The notes under the pieces are model-generated. The model made no database searches. It worked only from the letters and a program-made list of their open reading frames with translations, and was not told the DNA's origin. DNA of 61,617 bases from a virus: the IMG/VR virus record IMGVR_UViG_3300042691_031027, positions 1 to 61,617 of that record. One strand, 5' to 3'. Within the stretch, counting starts at the first letter, position 1; every line of letters starts with the position of its first letter. The translations under genes and the position numbers were made by a program. Positions 11,094 to 59,818 of this stretch are shown here, in pieces.

Positions 11094-11843
11094 TTAATTC
11101 TTAAGACTTATATGACCATGTTCATAAAATTCATTATACTTACGAACATATATTAATTTCAAACGCTTTATAATTTTAGTTATTTGAGGTGTTGAAGCGT
11201 CTGTCATTTCTTTTATATAGATGTATAGGGCCTTTTTATTAAAAATATCTAAATTCTCACTTTTCTTAAATAACTCATTAATAGCGTCTGCTATACGAGC
11301 GTCATTTTGTTTAGGAAATAAAATTGTTAAATTTATATCTACAAAACGAGTAAATTGTTTAAGGAAATTTGAGGTTTTATCTACCTCATTATTCTCATAT
11401 TTATTTACTAAGTCAACTAAAATAGATTTATCTTCATCAATAGCATCAACTGGTGCTTTATCTTTTAGTTTTTTATAGTTAGCGTTATTATATAAAATAA
11501 GATAACGTTTAGCTATAGTACCAAAATAACTAAAAGCTTTACCTTTTGTCTGGTCATATAGATGAAGTTTTTCTAAAAGAAATGCTACTACTTCATGTTG
11601 GAGTTCAGGAATAGTGTCTACTTCTGTGTAGTAAAATTTAAAAGTATGAATGATATTTTCTGTTAGTTTATGAAATGCATAATTAATCCTTTCATTAAAT
11701 ATTTTATTTCGTTTTTTAGGACTTCTAGCTTTTAAATATTCTAAAATAGCATCTTCAGTGTCTTGAGTAAAATAAACATTAGCTTTTTTTGGCTTACGTT
11801 TACGTACAGTTCCTTTTTTAGTTAATAATACTTCTTCAGCCAT
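11094..11843 (-). CDS. RNA polymerase sigma factor for late transcription, T4 gp55-like
   Basis: 249 aa, longer than T4 gp55 (185 aa) because of a basic N-terminal tail (KKGTVRKRKPKK). The core shows the divergent region-2 pattern of gp55-type factors: FNERINYAFHKLTENIIHTF, then ELQHEVVAFLLEKLHLYD and KGKAFSYFGTIAKRYLI. The C-terminal part has a helical recognition-like segment (PQITKIIKRLKLIYVRKY). The family redirects host polymerase to late promoters, in T4 together with the sliding clamp. It lies directly upstream of the baseplate operon. Confidence 0.82.
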   Translation of the reverse strand: MAEEVLLTKKGTVRKRKPKKANVYFTQDTEDAILEYLKARSPKKRNKIFNERINYAFHKLTENIIHTFKFYYTEVDTIPELQHEVVAFLLEKLHLYDQTKGKAFSYFGTIAKRYLILYNNANYKKLKDKAPVDAIDEDKSILVDLVNKYENNEVDKTSNFLKQFTRFVDINLTILFPKQNDARIADAINELFKKSENLDIFNKKALYIYIKEMTDASTPQITKIIKRLKLIYVRKYNEFYEHGHISLKN

Positions 11844-13566: not shown

Positions 13567-14061
13567 TTAAAGTGGGGATATAATGTATTTAGCGCCAAGT
13601 AATTTCACTGTCTCAATGGCGTCTTTAGAATGTAAATAAAACATTTCACGATTACCTGACACACGAACAGCATCTAAATGTTCATGAATTTCTTGTTCAA
13701 GTTTATGTGAGTTAAAACATTTGAATGAAAAAACAGGAATCCATGGAGTTGGAACACCTGTTGCTCCTGATATTTCTTTTGCTCGTTGATCTACTTCACG
13801 AATTGTCATTCCTATTTTAACCATGTCTGGCATTGACTTATTTACTAGAACATAAACGTATTCTGTAGGAACTAAATTGCCACTTTGATCAATAGGCGAG
13901 TCTTGATAATAAGTCACCAACTCCCAACCCGGTTCAGTCGGGTCAGGAGTTAAGGTGAAGGCTGTGGCTTTATTACAGATTTGGTCTGATGTTAGTTTAT
14001 CTGGATCTAGCACTTTATAGAAATGTGCTTCCTCGAGTGTTATTTTTTTAAGTTGTTTCAT
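13567..14061 (-). CDS. T5orf172/MUG113-type GIY-YIG nuclease-like protein
   Basis: 164 aa. The sequence EYVYVLVNKSMPDMVKIGMT is the first strand pair of the T5orf172 branch of GIY-YIG proteins. REVDQRAKEISGATGVPTPW and KLEQEIHEHLDAVRVSGNRE follow, with the conserved Arg, Glu and His positions, and EMFYL close to the end. The family occurs in many phages as a DNA-binding or nuclease domain. An N-terminal segment of about 45 residues precedes the domain. Catalytic activity is not assured. Confidence 0.78.
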   Translation of the reverse strand: MKQLKKITLEEAHFYKVLDPDKLTSDQICNKATAFTLTPDPTEPGWELVTYYQDSPIDQSGNLVPTEYVYVLVNKSMPDMVKIGMTIREVDQRAKEISGATGVPTPWIPVFSFKCFNSHKLEQEIHEHLDAVRVSGNREMFYLHSKDAIETVKLLGAKYIISPL

Positions 14062-14226: not shown

Positions 14227-15420
14227 TTACTTAGTTATATATTTTACTAATTCTTTATTCAACATCATTAACTTAAATTTACCTGGATTACTATTATAAA
14301 TTGATTTAATCATATTATAACAAACATCTGTAGCAAATATTTTTTCTGTTACAATCTTAGAAACACGATCAATAATATCTTTTTCAATCTTATTATCTTT
14401 AGCATAGAACTCTAAATAGTTAGCAACCCTAGTACCTAATGTTGCGGCAATATCTGCTCTATATTCTTTATCTTTACCAACTAAACTTTTAAGTGTATTC
14501 ATTACATAATGTTCATCTTGTGTCATGATGTTTTCTGGTGAAATCATCTTATCCAATTTATTATTAATGAACATTGTGAATAAAGTACTAAATTCTGGTC
14601 CAACACTTCCTTCTCCAATCATTTGAATTAGTGGTAATTTCTCTTCAAATGATTTAATTGAACTAATACTATTAAAGAACATACTAACACTTCTACTGTT
14701 AATTTCTTTAGTTACTAGTTCTGGATGCATCAATAAGAAGTTAATACAACGACCATCCAACTTATTCTCCTCAGCCCACTTACCCCAACATTTAAGATCA
14801 AATTTCAAGTTAACACTAATAAACCTTGTTTTTTGAGCATTATCAATACTGTTAACCAAATAATCTCCATTATCAGGATTTGATGTTAGAATGATATGCC
14901 AATCTTTAGGCAACTTCCAGCTAATATATTGTTGACGGTCAATTAGCTCCATTACAGCTTGAATGAACCTCATATCAGCACGATTCCAGTCATCCAATAA
15001 TAATATACCACCATTTGTTTTTCCACTAATCCATTCTGGTGGACAATAACTCATACGGTTCAAACCTGTAGATTCAAAACCTTTCTTACGATAATCTTCA
15101 ACATTATTTTCATCTACCCATTCTGTTTTTTTACCTTCTTTCATTTCAAACTGACGAATTGGAAAACCAACTAAATCACCAATTTCTTCAATCTGTGCAA
15201 GATTCAATTTAACAAAATTCAATCCTAACTCATCTGCTAACTGAACAATTGATGATGTTTTACCAATACCTGAATCACCCACAACCTCAGTACTAACCAT
15301 TGGTTTGTTATTTTCTTGTAGGAAGCGATTGTTGTCAATAATGTGTTTAAGAAAATCCTTCAATTCATTAACATTCAATGAAACTGAAGCGTTTGTTTTT
15401 GATGTTGATTTTTTTGCCAT
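14227..15420 (-). CDS. MoxR-type AAA+ ATPase
   Basis: 397 aa. The Walker A motif is GDSGIGKTSS at about residue 50; Walker B is GGILLLDDWNRA; VMELIDRQQYISWKLPKDWH and IILTSNPDNGDY give the sensor 1 region; KTRFISVNLKFD supplies the Arg-finger region. This order matches MoxR/RavA-type ATPases, which act as chaperones that remodel or load metal-dependent partners together with a VWA protein. The next upstream gene encodes exactly such a VWA protein. A conserved phage promoter-like element lies just before it at 15440-15472. Confidence 0.85.
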   Translation of the reverse strand: MAKKSTSKTNASVSLNVNELKDFLKHIIDNNRFLQENNKPMVSTEVVGDSGIGKTSSIVQLADELGLNFVKLNLAQIEEIGDLVGFPIRQFEMKEGKKTEWVDENNVEDYRKKGFESTGLNRMSYCPPEWISGKTNGGILLLDDWNRADMRFIQAVMELIDRQQYISWKLPKDWHIILTSNPDNGDYLVNSIDNAQKTRFISVNLKFDLKCWGKWAEENKLDGRCINFLLMHPELVTKEINSRSVSMFFNSISSIKSFEEKLPLIQMIGEGSVGPEFSTLFTMFINNKLDKMISPENIMTQDEHYVMNTLKSLVGKDKEYRADIAATLGTRVANYLEFYAKDNKIEKDIIDRVSKIVTEKIFATDVCYNMIKSIYNSNPGKFKLMMLNKELVKYITK

Positions 15421-15439
15421 AACCTTATTTGTTTTTTTA

Positions 15440-15472
15440 TTTATTTAAATATATTTTGTTTACCGAGGTCAT
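15440..15472 (-). promoter_or_regulatory. Phage 18-nt-spacer element (ATGACC type)
   Basis: Minus strand reads ATGACC, 18 nt ending ATAT, then TTAAATAAATAA, 20 bases before the MoxR-like ATG. It touches the stop of the upstream VWA gene, giving the ATPase its own expression signal. Confidence 0.5.
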
Positions 15473-16710
15473 TACTTAATCTGAACTTTAGCTCCTGGTA
15501 ACTCATCATTAATACTTCTTCCTGAACAATGAACCCAAAGTGTTGGTTTACATGGTTTAATATTAGTTGAACATTCACCATCAGTTAGATAAATCAAGTT
15601 CTGATACTTGTCTCTATTGTCATGTAAATATTCAAGTACTGGATCATAACTTGTACCTCCACGACCTGTTACTTCTAATGCCTCTTTATTTTTACCTGTA
15701 TATTCATAAACACGACCAATAGTAGCATCACATTCAATTACAGTCACTTGAGTTCCTGTTTTATATATGTGATGTATTTCGCTTAAAAACTCCTTTAAGT
15801 CGTCTTTACTAACTGATCCTGAAGTATCAATAGCAACTAGTGTATTTTTCTTTTGTTTGATTTTAAGGGCTGGGTTGCCATAAAAACGTTTATTTGGTTT
15901 ACGTCTTGTTTTTTTAGTATAGATTTTAGATGCCATACCATTAAAACGTCTCAAATAAGCTCTCCAATCAAGTACTGGTTCTTCACTTACGTATAAACTA
16001 TCAATTAATTCTTTCAACTCACCAGGTATATGTCCTCTCTGTTTTTTAACTTGTTCAGCTGTTTCTTTTAATTGATACTCAATTTGTTTCTCCATTAATT
16101 TCTTTTCAGCATCATCCATTCCTTCAAATTGTTTCCAAAACTCATGACTACCTTTAACAGTGACTTTAGTACCATCACTTAATGTTATTTCTCTCTCTTC
16201 ACCATCACCATTACATCCTTTCATAGCATCTAAGAACTTAGCTAAATCACCATCTGGATTTTGTTCAATTTCTTTTTGTAGTAAGTCATAATACTTTCTA
16301 GTACCTGCTTTTTCTGGTAAATTAAGATCCTTAAACATTTTACCATCAATTTCTAATCCCTCCCAAGTATCATCTTTATATTCCTTATCAATGTATTGAT
16401 TAATCTCCAAATCAGCAGCCACATTTAACAATTCTTTATTTTCATATAGGTCGAACATTTGTAAGTGTTTGAACGCGATATGTAATAATTCATGTTTCAA
16501 AACAGCTACTTTACATTTATCACTTATTGTCTCCCAAAATTTAGGACTAACAACTAATTTAGTATTAATGCCATCTTTGGCTACACAAGCAGTTCCAACA
16601 GCATTACTAATTTCTTTATTCAAACCAATTAGGAACAATCCATAAAATGGTTCTTTGAACATCAATGTTTTTGAGTGTTTGGCGATGTCGCCATGCATAT
16701 CATTTATCAT
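15472..16710 (-). CDS. Metallopeptidase-like/VWA (DUF2201) protein
   Basis: 412 aa. The N-terminal half contains KVAVLKHELLHIAFKHLQMF, an HExxH zinc-binding helix, followed by NVAADLEINQYI. The C-terminal half is a VWA domain with the MIDAS motif LVAIDTSGSVSKDDL, the conserved GRGGTSYDPVLEYL and LIYLTDGECS. This two-part architecture is that of DUF2201 (putative metallopeptidase plus VWA-like), typically genetically paired with a MoxR ATPase, here the next gene downstream. Substrate unknown. The basic linker IYTKKTRRKPNKRFYGNP lies between the halves. Confidence 0.85.
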   Translation of the reverse strand: MINDMHGDIAKHSKTLMFKEPFYGLFLIGLNKEISNAVGTACVAKDGINTKLVVSPKFWETISDKCKVAVLKHELLHIAFKHLQMFDLYENKELLNVAADLEINQYIDKEYKDDTWEGLEIDGKMFKDLNLPEKAGTRKYYDLLQKEIEQNPDGDLAKFLDAMKGCNGDGEEREITLSDGTKVTVKGSHEFWKQFEGMDDAEKKLMEKQIEYQLKETAEQVKKQRGHIPGELKELIDSLYVSEEPVLDWRAYLRRFNGMASKIYTKKTRRKPNKRFYGNPALKIKQKKNTLVAIDTSGSVSKDDLKEFLSEIHHIYKTGTQVTVIECDATIGRVYEYTGKNKEALEVTGRGGTSYDPVLEYLHDNRDKYQNLIYLTDGECSTNIKPCKPTLWVHCSGRSINDELPGAKVQIK

Positions 16711-16720
16711 ATTAATTATT

Positions 16721-17860
16721 TTATACTAAAGATAATTCGTTAACCTCGGTCGTAAAAACAATATCAACTAATGCTTCTGAGGCTGAGTTACTTAATTTAA
16801 ATTCACGGTTGATATTGTCTAGTAAGAATTTCTTAACAATTTCACCTTCCTTACCTTCTTTAAAGTTTAATCTCAACCCAGTACCAAATGTTTTCCAATC
16901 TTTATCCCAATGTATACCTTTTGTCTTAAACACCTTTAATAGACTTTTTAAGTTGGAATTAGACGATGAATAATAACTTGGTCTAAATTTAGTTGTATGA
17001 GTAAGTTCATTTAGTAGAAAAGCTAATGATAGTAATGTTGGCTGGTTAAGAACTAGATTAGACATCATTTCAAATCCTAACTTAACATTAGCATCATCAG
17101 AACTAAATAACATATCTCTGAGTGTTTGAAAATATTCATCATCAAGTTCAATTCCTTCTTTATTCATTTCTATAAAAAACTCCTCATCAAAAATAAACTT
17201 AACTTCACCACTTAGAATACGATTTTTATTATCAACTAACATTCCTAATAAATCAATTAAACGTCTTTCTCTATAAAAATCAATTATAACACCTTTAACT
17301 TTATAAGTGTTATTTTCAAAATTAATTTTTTCAATAGGATGTTTACTAAATATTTTTTTCAAATCATTCTGACTATTTCTAACATAACTTAAAACACTAT
17401 AATCAGTACATGTGTTATAAGTATCTATTAAATTATATCTAGTACCTGTATTAGGACTTAAAATTAGATTTTTGATTTTATCTGTTGTATGATTTTTAGT
17501 ACAAAAAGTATGAGTTTCAAGTTTCAATCCTTTTTTAAATCTATTAAAATATCCTTTATTAATAATAATCACATCAGCATATTTATGTCTTGATGTTTTT
17601 TTCAAGTTATTATCTTTAATAAACTCTTTCAATTTAAAACGAGGTATTTCACTGGCTTTAGAGGCGTATATAGTATCTCCTTTTTTAGGTTTATATGTTG
17701 TTTGTTTTTCAATGTATGTTATTATATTATTAATATCATGACTTTCATTTTCATTCAAGAAATAACATCCATTAATTCCCCAATAATAACTAATTTGCCA
17801 TTCAAATTTATTTGGTTTATTCCATATCTCATTAAATGATACTGGTATTATTTTGTTCAT
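16721..17860 (-). CDS. Unknown partner of the MoxR-VWA pair
   Basis: 379 aa with no recognised domain. The N-terminus (SFNEIWNKPNKFEWQISYYW) is aromatic-rich; a middle segment holds RYNLIDTYNTCTDYSVLSYV and RERRLIDLLGMLVDNKNRIL; the C-terminal third is helical with LREMLFSSDD-like and NQPTLLSLAFLLNELTHT sequence. The gene is ten bases upstream of the VWA gene, making it the best candidate for a substrate, inhibitor or adaptor of that module. Start ATG at 17860 with the common AAAGTTATG context. Confidence 0.6.
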   Translation of the reverse strand: MNKIIPVSFNEIWNKPNKFEWQISYYWGINGCYFLNENESHDINNIITYIEKQTTYKPKKGDTIYASKASEIPRFKLKEFIKDNNLKKTSRHKYADVIIINKGYFNRFKKGLKLETHTFCTKNHTTDKIKNLILSPNTGTRYNLIDTYNTCTDYSVLSYVRNSQNDLKKIFSKHPIEKINFENNTYKVKGVIIDFYRERRLIDLLGMLVDNKNRILSGEVKFIFDEEFFIEMNKEGIELDDEYFQTLRDMLFSSDDANVKLGFEMMSNLVLNQPTLLSLAFLLNELTHTTKFRPSYYSSSNSNLKSLLKVFKTKGIHWDKDWKTFGTGLRLNFKEGKEGEIVKKFLLDNINREFKLSNSASEALVDIVFTTEVNELSLV

Positions 17861-17870
17861 AACTTTATTT

Positions 17871-18092
17871 TTAATTTAAATGAATATAATTTGTTTTTGA
17901 ATCAAATAATGGTACCCACACAACATCATTTCTATCTGGAACTGCGAACACATTATTATTTGTTACACCCGCGTTCAATTCCATTAAAATCAATTCTAGT
18001 TGTTCTTCATCAACCCACTCAGCATCATCAATAACATGACCTACATAATAAAATCCATGTTTACAAACAAAATCTGATTTTTCGAATTTCAT
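17871..18092 (-). CDS. Small hypothetical protein
   Basis: 73 aa, acidic (VIDDAEWVDEEQLELILMEL), first gene of the unit leading into the 379-aa and MoxR-VWA genes. Not recognised. A TTAACC version of the phage element lies just upstream (18100-18133). Confidence 0.55.
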   Translation of the reverse strand: MKFEKSDFVCKHGFYYVGHVIDDAEWVDEEQLELILMELNAGVTNNNVFAVPDRNDVVWVPLFDSKTNYIHLN

Positions 18093-18135: not shown

Positions 18136-18951
18136 TTACTCAGCATCTTCATTAACCGCTACTCCATAATAAATGTGATCGTTTTGAAGTTCATATCCGA
18201 ATTTCTGATCAACATTACCATTTCTGTTCTTGATAAAATTAATATAAGTACCACCACCATTTCTATCTGATTCTCTTCTCATTTCCATCATCGCATCAGT
18301 CATGTGTTTCAATTTATTTGAACCTACAAACTCACCTGATTTAGTAACTTGTTGAATCAATAAAAACGATGTGTAAGCGTTTATTTTATTTTCACCTTTA
18401 TTATTCTTAACACACAAATCAACTAACCATGATTCAGCTTGCTTACGATCCCATTTATTATCGTCACGAACACCTTCAATAATCTCAGCGATACTATCAA
18501 TCAAAATCAAATCCCAACCCATATTCATCACACCTTCAATTACATCTTTAGTGTTGTGTTCTAAATAGTCGGACATAAATAATGTTTGAATATTACCAAA
18601 TTGTGGAAAACGTTGTGTGTATTTGAACATTTGTTTCTTACCCATTTCACCTGAAATAAACAAACATTTTCTTCCACGATTCTGAACACCAGATAAAATA
18701 TCTAATAGTACAGTTGTTTTACCAACTCCTGGATCACCTATACACATTATATTAGTTGCACATGGTATACCACCTTCATGTGAAATCAGGTCATCAATCA
18801 TCATTCCACTTTTCATTGTTTCCATCATTCGTGGATCAATATCCAAGTTGTTCAATTTAACAATATCAAAATTGATATTAACTGGAGCTACTGTGAAATT
18901 AGCTACTTGATTTTTTTTACTTGGACGACCTCTTTTTTTACCTGTGTTCAT
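18136..18951 (-). CDS. RadA/Sms-like RecA-fold ATPase with N-terminal AT-hook
   Basis: 271 aa. Walker A is CIGDPGVGKTTVLLD (about residue 88); KCLFISGEMGKKQMFKYTQR corresponds to the GEES-type segment of RadA; MGWDLILIDSIAEI is Walker B; LLIQQVTKSGEFVGSNKLKH gives sensor residues; IKNRNGNVDQKFGY resembles the RadA KNRFG motif. The first residues, MNTGKKRGRPSKK, form an AT-hook. The start is placed at ATG 18951: reading further upstream would begin at the TTG of the TTGACC element. Role inferred as recombination, branch migration or replication loading. Confidence 0.75.
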   Translation of the reverse strand: MNTGKKRGRPSKKNQVANFTVAPVNINFDIVKLNNLDIDPRMMETMKSGMMIDDLISHEGGIPCATNIMCIGDPGVGKTTVLLDILSGVQNRGRKCLFISGEMGKKQMFKYTQRFPQFGNIQTLFMSDYLEHNTKDVIEGVMNMGWDLILIDSIAEIIEGVRDDNKWDRKQAESWLVDLCVKNNKGENKINAYTSFLLIQQVTKSGEFVGSNKLKHMTDAMMEMRRESDRNGGGTYINFIKNRNGNVDQKFGYELQNDHIYYGVAVNEDAE

Positions 18952-18967
18952 ATTTTTTAACTTTTTA

Positions 18968-19002
18968 TTTATACCTAAATTTACTGAAATAGTTGTGGTC
19001 AA
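18968..19002 (-). promoter_or_regulatory. Phage 18-nt-spacer element (TTGACC type)
   Basis: Minus strand TTGACC, 18 nt ending AAAT, then TTAGGTATAAA, located 17 bases before ATG 18951 of the RadA-like gene. Confidence 0.6.
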
Positions 19003-38088: not shown

Positions 38089-39267
38089 TTATTTATTATA
38101 AATATGAATAAGTTCATGTTCATGTGTTTCCATGTTTACTATACTCACGTTAAATATATCTAATTCAAATTCACCCTCTTCGCCTGATTGTGTTATTATA
38201 TCTGGGAATTGAGTTAAAGTAAAAAATGATTCTTGATTTAATTTAGTAGCATCAAATTCAATTACTATATCATTATCTGGAATATCTTTATCTATTGATT
38301 TAATTTTACTTTCAAGTTTAATTAAAGTATGTTTTTGTTCTAAATCTAAGTAATTAGATTCTAAAACACCCATTTCATCTTTAATATAAATTGTATTACA
38401 CCATGGTTCCAAAACAGCCAAAGCGTCTAAATTACAATTATGTACTATAAAACCAATATCATATTTGTGTGGTATAATTGGTTTCATAAAATGATCATGT
38501 TTAACAAAATGTCCCCACTTACGAATAAAATTTCTAGCGTTTTTATTTGTTGTGTAAAGCCATTCTTCACTATTCTTACCTGCTCCACCTCCAGCATGTT
38601 TATTAAATCTACTTCCTCTACTAGTGAAGTGATATACTAAACCATCCCATGATTGAACTACATAATATCCTTTTAAAATAAAACGATTAAATAGATCACT
38701 ATCTTCTTTTGATTGTGGAGCAAATAATTCATCATGTCCTCCTATAGCTAAATAATCTGATTTATACATACACCAAGGTGCAAATATACCTTCAGTCATT
38801 TTATCTTGTTTTAACCCTTCACTTTCATTGTACCATTTTTCAAAATTAAACTGTTCAGCTTCAACTCCAAAATCATAAATTATTTTTTCAGGCCCTGGAG
38901 GATGAAGTGGTGGTTCAACTCTAGTAGCACTTACTACTGTACCTGGTTTAAGATATTTTAAAATATTTTTATCTAAGTCTTTGCTAGCAACCATATCAGC
39001 ATGAAAAGCAAATATAATTTCTGTTCTAGCCATTTCAATACCCTTATCAAACATTCCTACTATACCAATACGTTCTGGGCCTGGATTATGATATGTAATT
39101 AAATCTTCATCATTAAGTGACTTAATCCATTCTTGAGTACCATCTATACTAGCATCATCTAAAACTAATATTTCATGTTTAGTTTCTAAATCACGAATTG
39201 ATTTATATGCTAATTGTAAAAACTCTAAATTATTTCTACTTGGTAATACAAATGTTATTTTATTCAT
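38089..39267 (-). CDS. Glycosyltransferase family 2 (GT-A)
   Basis: 392 aa. KITFVLPSRNNLEFLQLAYK, then HEILVLDDASIDGTQEWIKS are the GT2 nucleotide-sugar binding start; FAFHADMVAS supplies an HAD variant of the DxD; FAPQSKEDSDLFNRFILKGY is the acceptor-site ED region. About 130 extra residues at the C-terminus (YDIGFIVHNCNLDALAVLEP) look like a second small domain. First downstream gene of a ten-gene glycan locus. Confidence 0.85.
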   Translation of the reverse strand: MNKITFVLPSRNNLEFLQLAYKSIRDLETKHEILVLDDASIDGTQEWIKSLNDEDLITYHNPGPERIGIVGMFDKGIEMARTEIIFAFHADMVASKDLDKNILKYLKPGTVVSATRVEPPLHPPGPEKIIYDFGVEAEQFNFEKWYNESEGLKQDKMTEGIFAPWCMYKSDYLAIGGHDELFAPQSKEDSDLFNRFILKGYYVVQSWDGLVYHFTSRGSRFNKHAGGGAGKNSEEWLYTTNKNARNFIRKWGHFVKHDHFMKPIIPHKYDIGFIVHNCNLDALAVLEPWCNTIYIKDEMGVLESNYLDLEQKHTLIKLESKIKSIDKDIPDNDIVIEFDATKLNQESFFTLTQFPDIITQSGEEGEFELDIFNVSIVNMETHEHELIHIYNK

Positions 39268-39269
39268 TT

Positions 39270-39908
39270 TTATTTTTTAAGTTCAATTACAAAGAAAAAT
39301 ACCCAACAATTATCTAAATCAAATGTTATATCAGTACCCCATTGATTATTAGGTAACCTATGTTCTACTAATCCCATTCCTTGTATTTCTGATTCAGGAA
39401 AATTTCTTGACAATATATTAATCATTTCATTTTTATCATATTCATATAAATGTGTTCCTCCATTATACTCCCAAGTAGGTGTTTTACGTTTTGGTGTTGT
39501 TATAATAATAGTTTCTGAGGTACAATATTTTATACTTTGTAAGTATTCATCTATACGCTCTGGAGGTAAATGTTCAAATGTTTCAATTGATGTACAAACT
39601 TGAAATTCATTTTCTTTAAAATGTTCTTTTAAATTAAAAATATCTGATATTAAGTAAGTACAATTAGGACTAGACATTCTATTATTAGCTTCATTTATAC
39701 CCTCTTCATCAATATCAATTCCAACTACACTTTTAGCTCCTAAACTTAACAATAATCCAGCTCCATATCCTTTTCCTGTAGCAGCATCTAAAACTGTTTT
39801 ATCTTTTGTCCAGTGGTTAGCAAAAATGTATCTATCAATTGATGTAGATGATGCTGGATATACTAATCTATCTAGTTCCCAGATTAAAGTATTTTGACTA
39901 TCTTTCAT
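39270..39908 (-). CDS. SAM-dependent methyltransferase
   Basis: 212 aa. Motif I is TVLDAATGKGYGAGLLLSLG, followed by VVGIDIDEEGINEANNR and CTSIETFEHLPPERIDEYLQ, TIIITTPKR. Class I methyltransferase of the type found in glycan clusters. Substrate could be a sugar or a protein. It overlaps the epimerase gene. Confidence 0.85.
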   Translation of the reverse strand: MKDSQNTLIWELDRLVYPASSTSIDRYIFANHWTKDKTVLDAATGKGYGAGLLLSLGAKSVVGIDIDEEGINEANNRMSSPNCTYLISDIFNLKEHFKENEFQVCTSIETFEHLPPERIDEYLQSIKYCTSETIIITTPKRKTPTWEYNGGTHLYEYDKNEMINILSRNFPESEIQGMGLVEHRLPNNQWGTDITFDLDNCWVFFFVIELKK

Positions 39909-40746
39909 TCAAGTAATTTTTTATATAATCTTCAATATTATGTTTTGGTTCCCATCCTAGTATTTCTTTAGCTAAAGTATCAATACATAATGTTATAAAT
40001 GCTTCTCCTGGTTTATTTTCTTTATATTCAATTTCTTTGCCAAACATATCTGCTATTTCTTTAATAGAATAATTTTTTCCTTTACCTAATTCAAATATAT
40101 AATTCCAAGCTTGCTTTTCCAAAATTAATTTTAAACCATCAATTATATCATCAACATGAGTAAAATCTCTACGTTTTGTTCCATCACCATATATAATTAA
40201 TGATTTATTTTCCTCAATTCTTTTTTCCCAAGCGCCAATTAAAGTTGTATAACCACCTTCTTTTAAATGGTATGGACCATAAACATTATAAAATCTAACT
40301 ATAGTTGATTTTAAACCATAATGATGTCTAAATAAATGAATTATCTCTTCACCTATATCTTTGCTAAATGTATATGGATTTTGAAATTTACCTGAGTGGT
40401 GAGAACTACTTCCAGCGTAAATTAATGGTATATCATTTTTAGAGCAATATCTAGATATTTTTAAAGTAGCATTAGCATTAGTTGTAAAATAATCTTCTGG
40501 TTTTTCAAATGATGGTTGTATTCTAGCTATAGCTGCTAAATGATAAACAACATCAAAATTACCCCATGCTGAATAATCATCTATATTTCTAATATCAAAC
40601 TCAACATACTGAGCACCTTCTTGATGATTTGATTTTAAACCAGTACTATAATTATCAATTGATACTATTTGATGTCCTTCTTTTAGGAGACTTTTAATTA
40701 AATTTGTACCTACAAATCCAGCTCCACCTGTAACTAATATTTTCAT
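39898..40746 (-). CDS. NAD-dependent sugar epimerase/dehydratase (SDR)
   Basis: 282 aa. MKILVTGGAGFVGTNLIKSL carries the GxxGxxG NAD motif; the catalytic region is YAGSSSHHSGKFQNPYTFSK (Ser and YxxxK); FYNVYGPYHLKEGG and RRDFTHVDDIIDGLKLIL are substrate-side family motifs of UDP-glucose 4-epimerase relatives. Probably makes an activated sugar for the neighbouring transferases. Confidence 0.9.
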   Translation of the reverse strand: MKILVTGGAGFVGTNLIKSLLKEGHQIVSIDNYSTGLKSNHQEGAQYVEFDIRNIDDYSAWGNFDVVYHLAAIARIQPSFEKPEDYFTTNANATLKISRYCSKNDIPLIYAGSSSHHSGKFQNPYTFSKDIGEEIIHLFRHHYGLKSTIVRFYNVYGPYHLKEGGYTTLIGAWEKRIEENKSLIIYGDGTKRRDFTHVDDIIDGLKLILEKQAWNYIFELGKGKNYSIKEIADMFGKEIEYKENKPGEAFITLCIDTLAKEILGWEPKHNIEDYIKNYLNER

Positions 40747-41636
40747 AAATCTATATTAAAATATTTTTTAGCATATTGTTTTCTTACTTCAGGATAGAAA
40801 TCTAAATCTTCCATAGCTCGAGCCCAAACTCTTCCATCCTTTCCTAATAGTATTCCTGGTTGTGATAAGGCTCTAGGATCAACTTGTCTCCATTTATTAT
40901 GATGAAATTCAACTCCAGTCATATTATTTCCTCTATCTATTGATCCATCACTATTGTTTCTACTGCCAGCATCATCTTCTTGTCCTGTGATAGTTGATTT
41001 ACCTATTATTTTATACTTTGAATAAGGTGAGTTACAATAATATGTGAAATTATCTTCTTTATCAAATAAATCTTTTTTAGCGTCAACATAAGGTTTGATA
41101 GTATCAATATATTCTTTAGGAAAAGGTATATGCTCAGCCCATGTTCCATAAGGTGAATAACCTAATTCTTCTACTGTTCTTAGATACCAATCATCATCTT
41201 CCATACTTGGATAATAACGATAACGCTCATCCCACCATCCTAATCTAACTATTGTTTTTTTATGAAACACCATAGCGTTCCAAGCGTTAAGATGTATTTG
41301 TTCTAAGTGTGGTTTTTCATCTAATATTTGATTTAACACATCAAACCAATCCTCATCAAATAGCATATCATCAGCACAAGATAAAACCCAATCTGTATCA
41401 CTTAATATAAAACCTTGATTACATGCTTTAGTATATCCAACATTTTCTTGGCTATATACTATTTTAACATGTGGAAAATCTTTCTCTATTTGTTTTATTT
41501 TTTCTAATTCTTCACCAGTGGTATTATTATCCCAAACTATAATATTAGGTAATAAATGTAATGTTTCAATACATTTACGCAAACGATTAGCTCTATAATA
41601 ACTAACTATTACAGCTGTTATCTCTGATGGTTTCAT
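40743..41636 (-). CDS. Glycosyltransferase family 2
   Basis: 297 aa. ITAVIVSYYRANRLRKCIET, then PNIIVWDNNTTGEELEKIKQ, YTKACNQGFILSDTDWVLSC and ADDMLFDEDW (DDM as DxD). A C-terminal tail after about residue 200 is longer than the core GT-A fold. Four-base overlap with the epimerase. Confidence 0.85.
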   Translation of the reverse strand: MKPSEITAVIVSYYRANRLRKCIETLHLLPNIIVWDNNTTGEELEKIKQIEKDFPHVKIVYSQENVGYTKACNQGFILSDTDWVLSCADDMLFDEDWFDVLNQILDEKPHLEQIHLNAWNAMVFHKKTIVRLGWWDERYRYYPSMEDDDWYLRTVEELGYSPYGTWAEHIPFPKEYIDTIKPYVDAKKDLFDKEDNFTYYCNSPYSKYKIIGKSTITGQEDDAGSRNNSDGSIDRGNNMTGVEFHHNKWRQVDPRALSQPGILLGKDGRVWARAMEDLDFYPEVRKQYAKKYFNIDL

Positions 41637-42217
41637 TTTTTAAATATTGATAATGATGGAAATTGAGGATTAACAACTTTATAATTAACTTCATCCTTAA
41701 TAGAATTAATAGGAGTAGCTTTATATTTTACCATCCACTCTACATTATCTCTCTCCTCACTTCCTCCTTCAAATATAACAATACTTCCTTCTGGTAATGC
41801 GTTATATGCTTTTAAAATAGTATCACCAGTGTTAGATATATCAAGATGCATTAGATCAAATGGTTCTGGATTATTTACCCAATCATTAAAATCCATTTTA
41901 GTGAATGTCACATAGTCTTGTACCTCATACCTGGCTACATTAGATATTGTTTGTTGAATAGTTGAATGTTTATATTTATAATCTTCCCATAAATCATAAC
42001 ATACTAAATGTCCTCTACCTAGTTGTTTTAAAGCTAAACCTATAGCTACTGTTGAGTAGCCATATAGACATCCAAATTCAATTACTTTATTTGGTTTTAA
42101 TTCCAAAACAGTATCAAATATAGTCTTACCTATATTATTTTCTTTATATGAAGATTCAATATCTGTGATATTAAAGATTCCTTCCATCTTGTAGTCTTTT
42201 AAATTTAAATCCATCAC
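41633..42217 (-). CDS. Class I methyltransferase-like protein
   Basis: 194 aa (start could be the ATG at 42187, MEGIFNITDIESSYKENNIG). KVIEFGCLYGYSTVAIGLAL is motif I; HLVCYDLWEDYKYKHS, FDLMHLDISNTGDTILKAYN and GSIVIFEGGSEERDNVEW follow as in FkbM- or cephalosporin-hydroxylase-like methyltransferases. Likely decorates the phage-specified glycan. Confidence 0.75.
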   Translation of the reverse strand: MMDLNLKDYKMEGIFNITDIESSYKENNIGKTIFDTVLELKPNKVIEFGCLYGYSTVAIGLALKQLGRGHLVCYDLWEDYKYKHSTIQQTISNVARYEVQDYVTFTKMDFNDWVNNPEPFDLMHLDISNTGDTILKAYNALPEGSIVIFEGGSEERDNVEWMVKYKATPINSIKDEVNYKVVNPQFPSLSIFKK

Positions 42218-42914
42218 TATAACATTTTAATTTATAACCAGCTTCAACAAATATATGAGTAAAACTCACCTCAACTCCTTCTCCTCCATATCCTCCTTCA
42301 GTTAGAATTGATTCACCATTATGATTAATATTAGGAGTATTAAGATAATGAGGAAATTTATTAACTACATCTTTAATTACTTTAGTTGATGTGACTCCAA
42401 CTCCTCCATGAGCATGAGGATTATGTCCTCCAGTTCTTATAATATAATCATTTTCATCAAATATAAAATGATGTGCTGGGGCATCTGTGAATTGTAAAGC
42501 AGCTACAAATCCAACTTTATCATCTGTTTGTAATATATCAACCATATCAATCATAAAATTATTAGTCATAGGTAATATATCATCTTCATTAAAAAACCAA
42601 TAGTCATATTCATCTTGGAATTTATAAAAAGCATATTTATATGATCCAAAACTCATATCATGATTAATCATAGGTCGATGTAATACTTTTACAACTCCAT
42701 TCTTTAATTGAGTACCATCTATTGTATCTAAAAATTTATAAGCATCATGTGATTGTATATCATGATTAACAATCAATAAATCACTATCACATCCTGTATC
42801 TAAGGTTTGTAATGTATCAATTTGTTTGTTAATTATTATTTTAACATTATCAGCATTAAAAGGATATGTTCTCCTTTTTCCAAAAAATGTAGCTAAAACC
42901 TGTACTGTTTTCAT
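42171..42914 (-). CDS. Putative glycosyltransferase-like protein
   Basis: 247 aa. Not a clear family member, but YDYWFFNEDDILPMTNNFMI has an acidic DxD-like stretch, and GGVGVTSTKVIKDVVNKFPH and GGEGVEVSFTHIFVEAGYKL resemble acceptor-site parts of GT-A enzymes. Its place between a methyltransferase and an acetyltransferase in the glycan locus supports this. Confidence 0.55.
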   Translation of the reverse strand: MKTVQVLATFFGKRRTYPFNADNVKIIINKQIDTLQTLDTGCDSDLLIVNHDIQSHDAYKFLDTIDGTQLKNGVVKVLHRPMINHDMSFGSYKYAFYKFQDEYDYWFFNEDDILPMTNNFMIDMVDILQTDDKVGFVAALQFTDAPAHHFIFDENDYIIRTGGHNPHAHGGVGVTSTKVIKDVVNKFPHYLNTPNINHNGESILTEGGYGGEGVEVSFTHIFVEAGYKLKCYSDGFKFKRLQDGRNL

Positions 42915-43397
42915 TTATAAAGATTTATACATAAACACACTATCTATTTTTCCATTTTGAGTTATAATAGCATCAGGTATTATTCCAATAGGTAAAAATC
43001 CTAATTTTCTATATAATTTATAAGCATTGGTATTTATAATTTGTACTTTTAAATATGCTGTTTGATAACCTTGTATTTTAGCCCATTCCATGAATGTTTG
43101 ATAGGATTGATAAGCATAACCATATCCTCTAAAATCAGGATGAAGATCTAATCCAACATATAAACTTTTATTTGTTTCATCATAATTAGATGTTCTAATA
43201 TAACCAATTAATTTATTTTTAATATCAATAGCATACCATTTAGGCTTTTGATTTAAAAACCAAGTACAAGTTTCTTCATATGAATAAGATATTTGTGTAT
43301 CCAAATATGGTAAACAATAATCTCTAATTTCTTTAACTTGTTTAAGATCATTAAATTCAAGATCTCGTATTGTTAAAGTTTGAAGTTCAATTCTCAT
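42915..43397 (-). CDS. GNAT N-acetyltransferase
   Basis: 160 aa from ATG 43397 (MRIELQTLTIRDLEFNDLKQ), which overlaps the aminotransferase stop as TAATG. GLDLHPDFRGYGYAYQSYQT is the acetyl-CoA site (R/Q-x-x-G-x-G/A variant), and TAYLKVQIINTNAYKLYRKL then GFLPIG is the family C-terminal motif. Beside an aminotransferase it would acetylate the new sugar amine. Confidence 0.85.
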   Translation of the reverse strand: MRIELQTLTIRDLEFNDLKQVKEIRDYCLPYLDTQISYSYEETCTWFLNQKPKWYAIDIKNKLIGYIRTSNYDETNKSLYVGLDLHPDFRGYGYAYQSYQTFMEWAKIQGYQTAYLKVQIINTNAYKLYRKLGFLPIGIIPDAIITQNGKIDSVFMYKSL

Positions 43398-44581
43398 TAC
43401 CAACCTTTTTTAATACAATCAACAATATATTCTCTATCTTCTTTAGTCACCCACCATCCAACTGGAAGTGAAGATAATTTTTTAACTGTTCTATCTAGAT
43501 TAGGTAATATAGATTTATAATCTTTGACACAGCTATGAATATCATTACGTTCATGTACTTGTGAACATGCTATTCCTTTCTCAGCCATATAACGTTGAAA
43601 ATCATCTTTACGATCTACTAAAATACTATAAATCCAAAATGCTGATTCTCTATCATCATGACGTTTGAGTAATGTTAGTCCAGGTACATTTTTTAATTCT
43701 TTATCATAATAAGCAGCATTTTCTTTATGTTTAGAGATTATACTGTCAATACATTTAAAATTTTCTAAACCAATAGCTGCGTTAATATCATTCATATGAA
43801 ATTTAAATCCCCACTCTGGAATATCAGCTTCACACCTAAAATCTTTACGGTTACCTTCTCTATCAATACCATACCATCTTAATAACTTTCCTCTTTTGTA
43901 TAGATCGTTATGTGGAACAAATAATAAACCTCCATCACCTGATGTTACGTGTTTAATAGCTTGTAAACTAAAAGTACAAATATTACCATGAGTACCAATT
44001 AATTTACCTTTATACTTACTACCCATAGCGTGGGCACAATCTTCAATTATTGCTGGTTTAAATCCATATAACCGAGAAGCATGAGTTTGAATTTCAACTA
44101 ACCTATCTAAATCAACTGGATAACCACCCCAATGTACTACAAATATTGCTTTTGTTTTAGGAGTAATTTTTCTAGCTAAATCATCTAAATCCATATTCAA
44201 TGTTTCAGGATCAATATCAACCCATTTAATTTTAAAATTATTAGCTAGTATAGGCCAATTAGTGGCGGTACATGTTAAAGCTGTAGTTAATATTTCATCT
44301 CCATCTTCTAAACCAGGCCATTTAGATTCAAATACAGCATATCCATCAACTCCAACAACATGGGTAGATGGTTTTTTAAGCATATGTAACGCTAAATGCT
44401 CTGCTGATGTAGCTGAATTTAATGTTAGTATTTTATCATGCCTAAAATATTTTCTTAGGTGTTCTTCAAATTCCTCAACTACTGGACCTTGTCCAATAAA
44501 ACCACTTTTAAGTACTTGAGTTACTTTCTCAGTGACTGTATCAGCCATATGTACTTTAAATAAAGGTATATTTTTATTCAT
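43397..44581 (-). CDS. DegT/DnrJ/EryC1-type PLP sugar aminotransferase
   Basis: 394 aa from ATG 44581 (MNKNIPLFKVHMADTVTEKV). LTLNSATSAEHLALHMLK is the cofactor-phosphate loop; KPAIIEDCAHAMGSKYKGKL then IGTHGNICTFSLQAIKHVTS, GDGGLLF contains the PLP lysine (Lys in QAIKH); VVHWGGYPVDLD is a family segment. Converts a keto-sugar nucleotide to an amino-sugar. The upstream extension to 44626 overlaps a neighbouring gene. Confidence 0.92.
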   Translation of the reverse strand: MNKNIPLFKVHMADTVTEKVTQVLKSGFIGQGPVVEEFEEHLRKYFRHDKILTLNSATSAEHLALHMLKKPSTHVVGVDGYAVFESKWPGLEDGDEILTTALTCTATNWPILANNFKIKWVDIDPETLNMDLDDLARKITPKTKAIFVVHWGGYPVDLDRLVEIQTHASRLYGFKPAIIEDCAHAMGSKYKGKLIGTHGNICTFSLQAIKHVTSGDGGLLFVPHNDLYKRGKLLRWYGIDREGNRKDFRCEADIPEWGFKFHMNDINAAIGLENFKCIDSIISKHKENAAYYDKELKNVPGLTLLKRHDDRESAFWIYSILVDRKDDFQRYMAEKGIACSQVHERNDIHSCVKDYKSILPNLDRTVKKLSSLPVGWWVTKEDREYIVDCIKKGW

Positions 44582-44582
44582 A

Positions 44583-45215
44583 TTATAATGTGTTATAAAA
44601 TTGATTTTGTTTTTCTTGACGTTCAATTGTTTTAGAATGAATTAAATCATATCCTTCAGGTAAATTAGCTATTGTTTTCCATCCTGACAAACGCTCATGT
44701 ACTTTATTTATCCACTGTATTTCAGGTTTGTTAACACAAATTCGAGTTTGATAGTCAGGATAATTAACCCATCCATTTTCATCTACAAACCACTTCCATT
44801 TATCAATATGTTCTCTAGTCAACCCTTCTACAGTGTTAATTCTAGGTACAGCTATAACATCCACTATTCCTTTATTAATATTAAGTAACTCATGAATATT
44901 ATCTATTAAACCTTCACTTAAATACTCATCAGCATCTATATACATAATCCATTCTTTAGTACAATATAATTTAATATTATTTTTAAACGTAGCAAAGTCT
45001 TTATTTAAAGAAGCTGAAATATGGTTATAATGTTTGAGAGGAAATTTATTTTTAAAGCTATTAATCACATCAATAACTTCCTGAGTTACTTTGTCTGTAT
45101 CTGTTTGAACTATAACTTCATCTTCTGTGTTTATTGATTGTGATAATTGTTCTAGTAATTGTTTTAATTCAATATGTTCATTGCAAGCGGTGATAGCCCA
45201 TGATATTGTAGCCAT
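44583..45215 (-). CDS. Glycosyltransferase family 2, short
   Basis: 210 aa. ISWAITACNEHIELKQLLEQ, then DEVIVQTDTDKVTQEVIDVI and EWIMYIDADEYLSEGLIDNI (DAD as DxD) define the GT-A domain. Similar to short WaaE/KdtX-like transferases. One base from the aminotransferase start. Confidence 0.82.
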   Translation of the reverse strand: MATISWAITACNEHIELKQLLEQLSQSINTEDEVIVQTDTDKVTQEVIDVINSFKNKFPLKHYNHISASLNKDFATFKNNIKLYCTKEWIMYIDADEYLSEGLIDNIHELLNINKGIVDVIAVPRINTVEGLTREHIDKWKWFVDENGWVNYPDYQTRICVNKPEIQWINKVHERLSGWKTIANLPEGYDLIHSKTIERQEKQNQFYNTL

Positions 45216-45225
45216 AATATTAATT

Positions 45226-45654
45226 TTAAATTAATCCAATGTAATGACACGCCTCATCAAAAGCAGTCTTATCAAATGTTTTTAATGTTTTAGGATCTGA
45301 TTTATGGGTAGCTCCTTTTAGTTTTTCTTTTTCCTCATCATTAGTCTCTGTAACTTTAATACCTGCCCATCCCCAATTATCTTTATCAGTGCCATTAACA
45401 AAAACTGTACCTTTATCTTGAATATTAATTACTGTTGGGTACCATACTTTTTTCTCATCATCAATAAATTTAATATCTTTATAAAGTTCAGGCATTACTT
45501 CTTCTGTCTCAGTTACTAATTGACTTTCCTCAACCATTAATTCATTAGTTGTGAAACCACAACTTAGACAACTCCATATTAATATTCCTTGTTGTTTATG
45601 TTCATAACAAGCATCACTTCCACAATGTTTACATGTCACTAATTTATCTTCCAT
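45226..45654 (-). CDS. Zinc-ribbon protein of unknown function
   Basis: 142 aa. TCKHCGSDACYEHKQQGILI, then WSCLSCGFTTNELM forms a two-CxxC zinc ribbon. The rest (WYPTVINIQDKGTVFVNGTD, FDKTAFDEACHYIGLI) is a compact alpha/beta domain. The KDNWGWAGIKV segment is reminiscent of phage conserved proteins. Placed inside the glycan locus but not obviously part of it. Confidence 0.62.
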   Translation of the reverse strand: MEDKLVTCKHCGSDACYEHKQQGILIWSCLSCGFTTNELMVEESQLVTETEEVMPELYKDIKFIDDEKKVWYPTVINIQDKGTVFVNGTDKDNWGWAGIKVTETNDEEKEKLKGATHKSDPKTLKTFDKTAFDEACHYIGLI

Positions 45655-45778
45655 TTTCTTCTATTTTAACTTGTTTTAATATTTCTTTTAATTCTTCAAA
45701 TGCGCTTGGAGTTAAATTATAATGATTTGAAGCCGTTATAAAACCTCTAAGCCATATAACAAATTCTCTGGATGTCAT
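45644..45778 (-). CDS. Small conserved phage-type protein, 44 aa
   Basis: MTSREFVIWLRGFITASNHY then NLTPSAFEELKEILKQVKIE. The EFVIWLRGF start, followed by a helix after LTP, is a pattern common in small phage proteins. Start overlaps the preceding stop (TAATG) and the stop overlaps the next gene start. Function unknown. Confidence 0.6.
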   Translation of the reverse strand: MTSREFVIWLRGFITASNHYNLTPSAFEELKEILKQVKIEENGR

Positions 45779-47085
45779 TACTCTGATTTTTTAAGTTTAG
45801 GTAATTCTACTTTTTTAAGTGTAGGTAGCTTTAATTCTACTTGTTTAGGCACTTTATTTTCTAATATATTATCTAATAACTCAGCCATTTTATCAAATGA
45901 GAAATTTGTTTTAGAGTGATGAGCTTGACGTTTAGATTTTTCTAAATATTTAGTATAATATTCATAAACTTGTCTATAAGCATTAGCTACTTCTCCATCA
46001 TTAGGAGTGAACCACTGTGATTCTGGTAAAATCATATTTTGAACAACAGTTGATGGATGAACATTAGTTAAGGTACCATTGATTAATATATTATAATCTG
46101 GATGTAAGAAATCTAAATGACCACTCCAGTTGCTAACTATAATAGGTTTTTTAGATAAACTAAACTCTAGTAATGGTCTTCCAAATCCTTCTCCTTTAGT
46201 TAATGATACCATTGCCTTTACTTTACCGTGGTTATATAAGTCATTAATGTCTTTATCTTCTAAATCACCATGTAACAAATAAACATTAGGTAAATCACCT
46301 TTTACTGTTTGCCTAATAGCATCTATCCTTTTTAAAATTTCATCTCTGTCTATTATTGAATTAGATATTTGAGCTGTTTTAAGAATTAAAGCGGGTTTGT
46401 TTCCTTTTTTATTCTTAAATGTTTCTAAAAAGGATTTGATAGTGTAACCTGTGTTTTTTCTATCTTCACCTATTTGACCTTGTAACCAATGGCCTACATA
46501 TAAGAAACAAAAATCTTCTTTAATTTCATCTAATGATTGAACCAATTCAGTTCCCTCTAAATCTTCATCAGGTATATGAAAATATTTATTTAAATCAACT
46601 CCTTCAAACAATACTTCAACTGGCTTTTCTAATTTAATATTTCCAACAAATTGATTTGTATTTTTATCCCGTTTTTCAAATGATGATTGTTCAAATACTC
46701 GTTTAGCATGTTCTGAAGATACTAATGTTAGATTCATTCTGTTAATTCCCTCTATCCAGCTTGGATCACATAATGTAGTTTCAATTCCAGCTGTTATACC
46801 AATATTATATTTTCCTATTGGTTGAAATTCATTTGGAACTGTGATTTGAATCCAAATATCTGGTTGTTGAGGAAGTTGAGGTTGTTTCCATATTGTATTT
46901 AGTAATTTTTGATCTTCAGGATCATTTGGATCTAAAGCATTCCATGCTGTATTACCCCAACGTTGTGATATTACCTTAACATCATATTTATCATATTTTA
47001 AAAGTGCTTTGATAATATCTCTTGATCTAGCACCATAACCTGACATTGTCTCTATAGGACAACTTATAACTAATAATGGTTTCAT
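45778..47085 (-). CDS. Glycosyltransferase, GT-B (group 1/GT4-like)
   Basis: 435 aa. The donor-site motif is VKAMVSLTKGEGFGRPLLEF then SLSKKPIIVSNWSGHLDFLH (E-x7-E equivalent), and the N-terminal Rossmann half starts LLVISCPIETMSGYGARSRD. Typical retaining GT-B size. Followed by a Lys/Pro-rich tail (KVPKQVELKLPTLKKVELPK). Confidence 0.85.
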   Translation of the reverse strand: MKPLLVISCPIETMSGYGARSRDIIKALLKYDKYDVKVISQRWGNTAWNALDPNDPEDQKLLNTIWKQPQLPQQPDIWIQITVPNEFQPIGKYNIGITAGIETTLCDPSWIEGINRMNLTLVSSEHAKRVFEQSSFEKRDKNTNQFVGNIKLEKPVEVLFEGVDLNKYFHIPDEDLEGTELVQSLDEIKEDFCFLYVGHWLQGQIGEDRKNTGYTIKSFLETFKNKKGNKPALILKTAQISNSIIDRDEILKRIDAIRQTVKGDLPNVYLLHGDLEDKDINDLYNHGKVKAMVSLTKGEGFGRPLLEFSLSKKPIIVSNWSGHLDFLHPDYNILINGTLTNVHPSTVVQNMILPESQWFTPNDGEVANAYRQVYEYYTKYLEKSKRQAHHSKTNFSFDKMAELLDNILENKVPKQVELKLPTLKKVELPKLKKSE

Positions 47086-47090
47086 AACTA

Positions 47091-48527
47091 TTAATAAACT
47101 AATTTGTGACGAATATGTTTTCTTTTAAGTGGTTCTGTTTTTATTAATTCAAATTTAGGTTTTGGTTTCCAGTTTTCCAAAACTTTATCAATATGCTTTA
47201 TAACATTTTTACTCATATTTTCAGCAGTCATCATGGATTCCTCTGATGTTACCCACTCATAAGCTAATCTACCTCTACGGTTTCTTTCTGATTTTCCTAA
47301 TTCATATACTTTCATAATAGCATCAGCTGCATCTCTAAAATCAACTCGATCATCAAAAATATAAGGTGTAGGAACTGAACCTTGTAAACTCATATTGCTT
47401 GGAAATACTGGTATAGCCCATTCACCACATTTTTTGTATTTGCCAAAATGGTTTGAGCAAAAATCTTTATCAAAATTAATCCAATTGCCATTTTCATCTT
47501 CAAAACGCATTTGATCTTGCATACCCCCACTTACATTACCTATAATCATTTTACCACACATCATACCTTCAGTAAGTGATAATCCCCATCCTTCATTTGA
47601 ACTTAACAATATAACCGCGTCTGATAGATTATATAATAAATTCATGCTATTAGCAGGTAATCTTTGGTCTGAGAAATATATTTGGCTACATTGGTTATCA
47701 TCAAATAACATATCCCTAACAGCATATAAATCAGTACCATGTTCATCCACAGGTTGAGTGTGTAACAAAAATGCACATTTATCAGCTTCTTCTTTAGGTA
47801 ATTTATCTAAAAACAATTTAAAAGCAGCTAATGTATCTGGAATTGATTTTCTTCTAATATTTCTAGAATTAAACATCAAAACAAAGTCATAATCTTTATC
47901 TCCAAAAATAGTCTTTTTAGCTTCTAATAATTCTTTATTATTTTTTTCTATAGGATAAAAAAACTTATTATTAATACCATGAGGTACATAGTCTAATATT
48001 TTGTTTTTTACTTTATCTCCTAATACTAATTTATTTATATTAAGAGTTTGTTTTGATATAGCCATTAACCCATCACATGAGTCATAATAAGATTCATTGT
48101 ATAATGGAGCTGGATAGTCATCCCAAATGTTAAGATACACAATAGGCATTTTTCTTCGAATCTCATTTTCCATTTGGAATAACCAAACCCAATATCTTGG
48201 ATCAGTAAAAATCATTAATACATCTGGTTTTTCAAAATCTATTAATTGTCTTACCAATATTGGATCACCATACCCACTAATAGGATATAATATAACACTA
48301 GCATCATCAATCCCAGCCTGAGTATTAGTATCGGCATTAAGATCAAATCGTTTACCTTGTTCAGGGTGATTAACAGCTCCACCTAAATTTGCCCAATTAT
48401 AATGATGGGCTGTACCTAATACTATCTCTCTAGCTATAGTAGCTATACCAGAAGTAAAACGAATGTCATCACATAACAAAAGTATTTTCTTTCGTTCTGA
48501 TTGTTTAATGTAACCTTCTTCTTTCAT
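47091..48527 (-). CDS. Glycosyltransferase, GT-B (group 1/GT4-like)
   Basis: 478 aa. KKILLLCDDIRFTSGIATIA opens the acceptor domain; LSDAVILLSSNEGWGLSLTE then GMMCGKMIIGNVSGGMQDQM is the donor site; LAYEWVTSEESMMTAENMSK closes the GT-B fold. First gene of the glycan operon in transcription order. Confidence 0.85.
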   Translation of the reverse strand: MKEEGYIKQSERKKILLLCDDIRFTSGIATIAREIVLGTAHHYNWANLGGAVNHPEQGKRFDLNADTNTQAGIDDASVILYPISGYGDPILVRQLIDFEKPDVLMIFTDPRYWVWLFQMENEIRRKMPIVYLNIWDDYPAPLYNESYYDSCDGLMAISKQTLNINKLVLGDKVKNKILDYVPHGINNKFFYPIEKNNKELLEAKKTIFGDKDYDFVLMFNSRNIRRKSIPDTLAAFKLFLDKLPKEEADKCAFLLHTQPVDEHGTDLYAVRDMLFDDNQCSQIYFSDQRLPANSMNLLYNLSDAVILLSSNEGWGLSLTEGMMCGKMIIGNVSGGMQDQMRFEDENGNWINFDKDFCSNHFGKYKKCGEWAIPVFPSNMSLQGSVPTPYIFDDRVDFRDAADAIMKVYELGKSERNRRGRLAYEWVTSEESMMTAENMSKNVIKHIDKVLENWKPKPKFELIKTEPLKRKHIRHKLVY

Positions 48528-59438: not shown

Positions 59439-59447
59439 ATTTCGCTG

Positions 59448-59818
59448 TGGAGATGGCGGGAATCGAACCCGCGTCTCCAAAAGTAAAAATAACATTAGCG
59501 TATCACATGCTTAGTACTACTTGCGTTGCACCGTAATTAGGGAACTAACCAGTAATTAGTTAGAACGCTCCACCACCTAGTTTTGAGAAAATTAGGAAAA
59601 CAAATGCTGTTCTGTTGCAAGGTTCTCAGCTACCCCGGTCGATTAAGCCGCTACTGCGTACTCATCCGCTCCTACGAAAGACATCATGTCTTCGAAGGTC
59701 CAAGTAGAAAGTTCTACGTTGTCGTTTATTGGTTTGTTCAGATATTAAAGTGGATTAGAACCATACCACTGCATGTAATGTTACCTTTCTCATCTGGATC
59801 AAGTCCATGTCATCCCCT
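59448..59818 (-). ncRNA. ssrA: Transfer-messenger RNA (tmRNA), tag ADEYAVAA
   Basis: 371 nt. The 5' end GGGGATGACATGGACTTGAT pairs with the 3' CATCTCC; the T arm is GCGGG TTCGATT CCCGC and the discriminator is A; CCA not encoded. The tag frame (59643-59669 with stop) reads GCG GAT GAG TAC GCA GTA GCG GCT TAA, giving ADEYAVAA, preceded by TAGGA, as expected for the resume-codon context. The tag ends in AVAA, matching the -ALAA/-AVAA ends recognised by ClpXP-type proteases. The remaining nucleotides form the pseudoknot-rich body. Rescues stalled ribosomes with host SmpB. Confidence 0.93.

Follow-up and report, generated by a model that had tools for sequence, protein, structure and literature searches.

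A 379-amino-acid protein without a family match (X379, or X) was found to be encoded together with a MoxR-like AAA+ ATPase and a zincin-VWA protein in a conserved three-gene module, and the data suggest that a family of uncultured T4-like bacterial viruses carries in X an unrecognized third part of a remodelling machine. The module was analyzed in virus record IMGVR_UViG_3300042691_031027, the whole 61,617-base stretch of which is termed the window. Judged from its gene content, the window appears to be part of a T4-like myovirus genome, encoding a baseplate wedge protein (phrog_219, 4e-17), a clamp loader protein (phrog_168, 2e-78), and an endolysin, in addition to one transfer-messenger RNA (tmRNA) and three tRNAs. 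On the minus strand lie the genes for X379 (16721-17860), the 412-amino-acid DUF2201 zincin-VWA protein of the N4 gp25 type (phrog_1314; 15472-16710), and the 397-amino-acid MoxR-like ATPase (phrog_1297; 14227-15420). A preliminary description had proposed a MoxR and HExxH/VWA pair at this position, and both open reading frames (ORFs) are present with the expected Pfam and PHROGs matches.

The linkage of the three genes was studied across viral loci. With X as the query, 35 viral loci were recovered, and in every one of them the VWA and MoxR genes followed X. This test is biased by its query, and MoxR was therefore used as the query instead. A first MoxR scan yielded 80 loci with identities as low as 68%; X was detected in 72 of these by an iterated X profile, and in the other eight the contig ended before X could appear. 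A second scan, using a distant MoxR member, added 40 X-bearing loci and another three that lack X, which were read as contig-edge cuts. Note that the second-scan loci partly overlap contigs already counted, and duplicate MoxR sequences were then removed, leaving 86 distinct MoxR proteins accompanied by all three genes. Writing V, M, and X for the three genes, the orders were VMX (44), XVM (29), MXV (11), and VXM (2), and at least three changes of order are needed on the MoxR tree. The three genes shared one strand in all loci surveyed, and eleven phage records of 100-180 kilobases (kb) each contained a single full-length X and a single VWA gene, close together. The array is far beyond chance, because it is kept in all examined relatives that are not cut by a contig end. 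Linkage that persists through changes of gene order is strong evidence for a joint function of the three genes, while not being proof of a complex. The proposal in the preliminary description that a MoxR-DUF2201 pair has an undescribed third partner is thus supported by linkage as well as by the residue conservation set out below: X never stood without MoxR-VWA neighbours in the examined loci, and MoxR of the X-bearing clade was never without X unless the contig ended.

The two recognizable components carry intact motifs. MoxR matched AAA_5 in Pfam (1.1e-5) and phrog_1297 in PHROGs (2.1e-35), and both its Walker A (GDSGIGKTS, residues 48-56, 15253-15279, minus strand) and its Walker B (LLLDD, residues 140-144, 14989-15003, minus strand) are intact. 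Identity among MoxR proteins across distant clades of the X-bearing family was about 66-72%, against about 22-26% in comparisons with those MoxR proteins of other phages that tblastn was able to detect. The 412-amino-acid protein matched DUF2201 (1.4e-18) and DUF2201_N (3.2e-15) in Pfam, and phrog_1314 (3.5e-67) in PHROGs. It was aligned with proteins from the X-bearing clade, N4-like phages, and the jumbo phages AR9 and RaK2 (29 proteins in all), and the zincin residues H73, E74, and H77, together with H82 and D100, were invariant; the first three lie in the HELLH motif (HExxH; residues 73-77, 16480-16494, minus strand). The metal ion-dependent adhesion site (MIDAS) residues D295, S297, S299, T353, and D377 were likewise invariant, the first three within DTSGS (residues 295-299, 15814-15828, minus strand). 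Loss of either set among relatives, a possibility raised in the preliminary description, was therefore not observed in this alignment, N4-like phages, AR9, and RaK2 included. No C-terminal effector domain was found on the VWA protein, the DUF2201 match of which extends to residue 397 of 412. The PHROG label of phrog_1314 is 'HNH endonuclease', which is present in many phage annotations; it is contradicted by the DUF2201_N/DUF2201 match of the phrog_1314 protein, which suggests that the family is misnamed.

X379 had no family match in Pfam at E<=1, gave only noise in PHROGs, and gave nothing above noise in NCBIfam or PADLOC, in agreement with its earlier description as a protein of unknown family. 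No match was obtained with an X profile against the sequences of solved structures, or by tblastn of three divergent X proteins against the cultured phages in INPHARED. Pattern scans of bacterial and archaeal genomes, by which only close relatives are reachable, found neither X nor X-clade MoxR. Both X and the VWA gene are absent from the related cultured phages immuto and Mel-JY01, and in cyanophage S-TIM54 a VWA gene adjoins the MoxR gene with no X present. When X was sought by hhalign near the MoxR-VWA pairs or VWA genes of other phages (Va1, MTATph1, EcP1, AR9, Pra-JY27, RaK2, AD45, and S-TIM54), the best probability was 1.9%, in a comparison with single target sequences that has limited sensitivity. 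A human-gut scaffold bearing a VWA-MoxR pair (L169, MT838754.1) was also set aside; it has no X and looks bacterial, with truA-like and Rnf-like neighbours. The MoxR-VWA pair itself was already known in phages.

X is the fastest-diverging member of the module, with identities for the same locus pairs of about 70% for MoxR, 47% for VWA, and 20% for X, and this divergence is partly due to a variable N terminus and an insertion. Residues D225, D240, E264, and N268 were nevertheless invariant in 72 X sequences, and the helical half of the protein is its most conserved half within the close clade, where it is 80% identical. As a separate observation, ORFs of 100-130 amino acids adjoining MoxR share a helical motif with X379 at about residues 238-270, of the form 'lD..i..L.dMl.S.d..N..lA.eii.N' (L013, 3276-3626; L015, 5424-5783; L006, 8608-8949; L074, 5669-5971). 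Stretches resembling this motif were also seen elsewhere in the large genomes.

The structure of X was predicted with AlphaFold2 from 72 diverse homologues, giving a mean predicted local distance difference test score (pLDDT) of 90.6 and a predicted template modelling score of 0.83; residues 54-237 modelled alone gave a pLDDT of 90.5. A VIA search with the full model returned BRCT domains for residues 58-235 and ARM/HEAT-type repeats for residues 236-321. With the isolated domain, nearly all of the 50 rows were BRCT-containing proteins, including Sir4, Rad4, DnlJ, Dbf4, PARP, XRCC1, RFC, and BRCA1, and some rows, such as SMARCC1, presumably hold a BRCT domain although their titles do not say so. 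The best Z-score was 7.3 and every one was below 8. The consistency of these matches makes it persuasive, at the level of a predicted model, that residues 58-236 (17153-17689, minus strand) form a BRCT-like domain with a variable insertion. The following residues 237-372 (16745-17152, minus strand), which contain the invariant D240, E264, and N268, are predicted to form an ARM/HEAT-like helical part; its Z-scores of about 6 against beta-catenin, importin alpha, and designed ARM proteins are of a kind common for helical models. The BRCT profile PF00533 matched only one of 72 X members (E 0.0043), leaving the X of the window unmatched, and no tryptophan, the signature residue of BRCT helix 3, was among the residues conserved in at least 80% of the 72 X sequences. 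The domain is called BRCT-like, and is not filed in the BRCT family, because both the sequence profile and the tryptophan fail. Foldseek gave no confident PDB relative of whole X, and none at E<=0.001 for the isolated domain; the lack of a confident solved relative of the whole protein does not establish a new fold. A structure search identified three BFVD models resembling X379 (A0A8S5QMV2, A0A8S5TL70, and A0A8S5TKB2; E 1.7e-10 to 2.8e-5), which derive from one crAss-like contig and one podoviral contig with two paralogues. The model comparison suggests that distant relatives of X occur in such contigs.

The module resembles several known systems in part. The closest pair is gp24/gp25 of N4 (Schitoviridae; phrog_1297/phrog_1314), where, as here, a MoxR-type ATPase adjoins a DUF2201 zincin-VWA protein with identical HExxH and MIDAS residues. 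The pair in the window conforms to this type, having a MoxR with intact Walker A and B, a zincin HExxH fused to a MIDAS-bearing VWA domain, and adjacent genes. The N4-type pairs differ in the low identity of their MoxR given above and in that no X gene was found near the sampled pairs, and N4 gp24 and gp25 are middle, not late, transcripts (PMC4193335). The same two kinds of protein occur in group 2.2 jumbo phages, where the metallopeptidase-fused MoxR-vWA pair has been proposed to act in virion assembly with proteolysis (Iyer et al. 2021, PMC7824862); the accessible part of that paper names no third component, whereas X is always present here. Bacterial MoxR-vWA ternary conflict systems (Kaur et al. 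2020, PMC7159879) do combine MoxR and vWA with a linked, dedicated third protein, and their VMAP proteins have a helical region plus a domain with conserved polar residues, as X does. However, the vWA of those systems carries C-terminal effectors, while the vWA here is zincin-fused and effector-free, and their third protein is of the VMAP, iSTAND, or another listed type instead of a BRCT-like and helical X. No VMAP, iSTAND, or other listed type rose above noise among the X matches, a result that does not include a direct comparison with VMAP-C. For NorQ-NorD, the VWA protein has been described as docking into the ring of MoxR subunits and passing force on to the client, for which the MIDAS is the likely contact (PMC13036017). 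NorQ-NorD, CbbQ-CbbO, and RavA-ViaA share with the present module an AAA+ MoxR and a VWA co-chaperone, but are two-component systems for which the portions of the sources available describe neither a zincin HExxH nor an X-like protein. A third partner of phage MoxR-VWA pairs was not named in the open-access literature searched.

In MoxR-VWA systems, the client is contacted by the MIDAS site and the N-terminal domain of the VWA co-chaperone, on which a MoxR hexamer pulls or twists. The interpretation that we regard as probable is that X379, the zincin-VWA protein, and MoxR form a ternary, ATP-driven remodelling module, in which X is most likely an adaptor and the client most likely a phage assembly. 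X would serve as the dedicated adaptor or client-recognition subunit, a role proposed because of the NorQ-NorD, bacterial ternary, and phage MoxR-vWA precedents (PMC13036017, PMC7159879, PMC7824862). Binding of a ligand or partner may fall to its BRCT-like domain, and docking on MoxR or the VWA protein could be the task of the conserved helical-repeat half or of one of the invariant acidic residues (D225, D240, or E264). The client would be a phage-encoded assembly such as a virion or packaging complex, possibly processed by the metallopeptidase. A virion or packaging client is perhaps the likeliest single choice. In its favour, the genes that come after the module in the large VMX clade encode a DUF6884 protein, a thymidylate kinase, a T4-type terminase, and a gp20-type portal. 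Several points weigh against this interpretation. The BRCT Z-scores and the near-complete failure of PF00533 tell against the domain assignment, and MoxR-VWA pairs of other phages manage without a detectable X. The expression of N4 gp24/gp25 as middle genes calls for caution over a virion client. The client is not pinned down, because neighbouring genes differ between clades; in the window's clade the module precedes a glutaredoxin, an HD-like protein, and a weakly sigma-like protein, with a baseplate gene further on. A bolder version, which we consider doubtful, is that phages own a ternary MoxR-VWA machine of a type undescribed in cells or viruses, in which an essential BRCT-like/helical-repeat adaptor reads a ligand, either phosphorylated or a DNA end, and passes a phage complex on to a zinc-peptidase-bearing AAA+ motor.

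It could be that the module is instead aimed at the host, with MoxR-VWA remodelling or inactivating a complex of the host or one of its defence proteins, and with X as a fast-evolving target-recognition arm in an arms race. The much faster divergence of X than of MoxR and VWA fits such a role, as does the existence of bacterial conflict systems in which MoxR and vWA are joined by a dedicated third protein (PMC7159879), and middle expression of N4 gp24/gp25 (PMC4193335) could be taken in the same way. PADLOC, however, gave no match for MoxR, VWA, or X, the module is single-copy and is not lost across a broad clade, unlike patchy counter-defence genes, and part of the divergence of X is explained by its variable N terminus and insertion while the helical half is well kept in the close clade. 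A host target is thus unlikely.

An activase of the NorQ-NorD kind, inserting metal into or otherwise activating a phage or host enzyme for which X is the specific adaptor, would accord with the NorQ-NorD mechanism (PMC13036017). It would also accord with a flavin adenine dinucleotide (FAD) oxidoreductase gene, which is a direct neighbour of the module in many loci of the VMX and MXV orders and is present in all 11 large genomes. In several genomes, though, this gene is distant from the module, and it also occurs in Campylobacter phages, in the one of which that was checked none of the three module genes was detected, and a constant metalloenzyme neighbour is absent, so that this explanation seems quite improbable. 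That X is a mere genomic neighbour, functionally unrelated and travelling with an ordinary MoxR-VWA pair, might be argued from the X-less pairs in N4-like phages, cyanophage S-TIM54, and jumbo phages, but X was never lost from uncut loci and stayed linked through the order changes while other neighbours changed freely, and we give this idea hardly any credence.

MoxR-VWA pairs occur widely among bacteria, archaea, and phages, and their choice of client is mostly unexplained. In one large clade of uncultured phages X always accompanies the pair, which makes it a concrete candidate for the specificity factor that is missing; its structure can be predicted, and a few of its residues are invariant. 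There is also one orphan family fewer in phage dark matter.

The genes around the module are less constant. In the window, a RadA-like gene (18136-19002, minus strand) and the gene for a 73-amino-acid protein (17871-18092, minus strand) precede X379, the successive gaps from the RadA-like gene to MoxR being 43, 10, 10, and 51 bp, and a site search found no terminator-like site within this region. The preliminary description had placed the 73-amino-acid protein in the operon, and the operon immediately downstream of the RadA-like gene; both genes do stand in the array of the window, but neither is a conserved member of the module. The 73-amino-acid protein was rejected as a module member, since its homologues are confined to the close relatives and occur in fewer than half of them. 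A RadA-like gene was detected next to the module in many of the close relatives, though not in all of them, and outside this group in a single surveyed locus (L075). Both are outside the conserved unit. The FAD oxidoreductase was similarly rejected as an obligate fourth member, given its presence in the Campylobacter phage without detected module genes, and is probably a clade marker; in most module-bearing large genomes it lies a few kb from the portal (L102, 3354-4682, and relatives). Among cultured phages, the closest terminases belong to Flavobacterium phages, which makes Bacteroidota the probable hosts.

A T5orf172/MUG113 gene of the GIY-YIG type (13567-14061, minus strand) differs in position among relatives, some of which have it downstream of MoxR and others directly upstream of X, and it is likely a mobile homing element. 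A conserved 249-amino-acid protein (11094-11843, minus strand), the L068 relative of which weakly matches sigma-70 region 2 (E 8e-4), is possibly a gp55-like late sigma factor. Elsewhere in the window, at least three glycosyltransferase genes lie at 38089-48527 (minus strand), and the full-length tmRNA (59445-59817, minus strand; Rfam RF00023, 84 bits), with the tag ADEYAVAA, is located near tRNA-Leu and tRNA-Glu.

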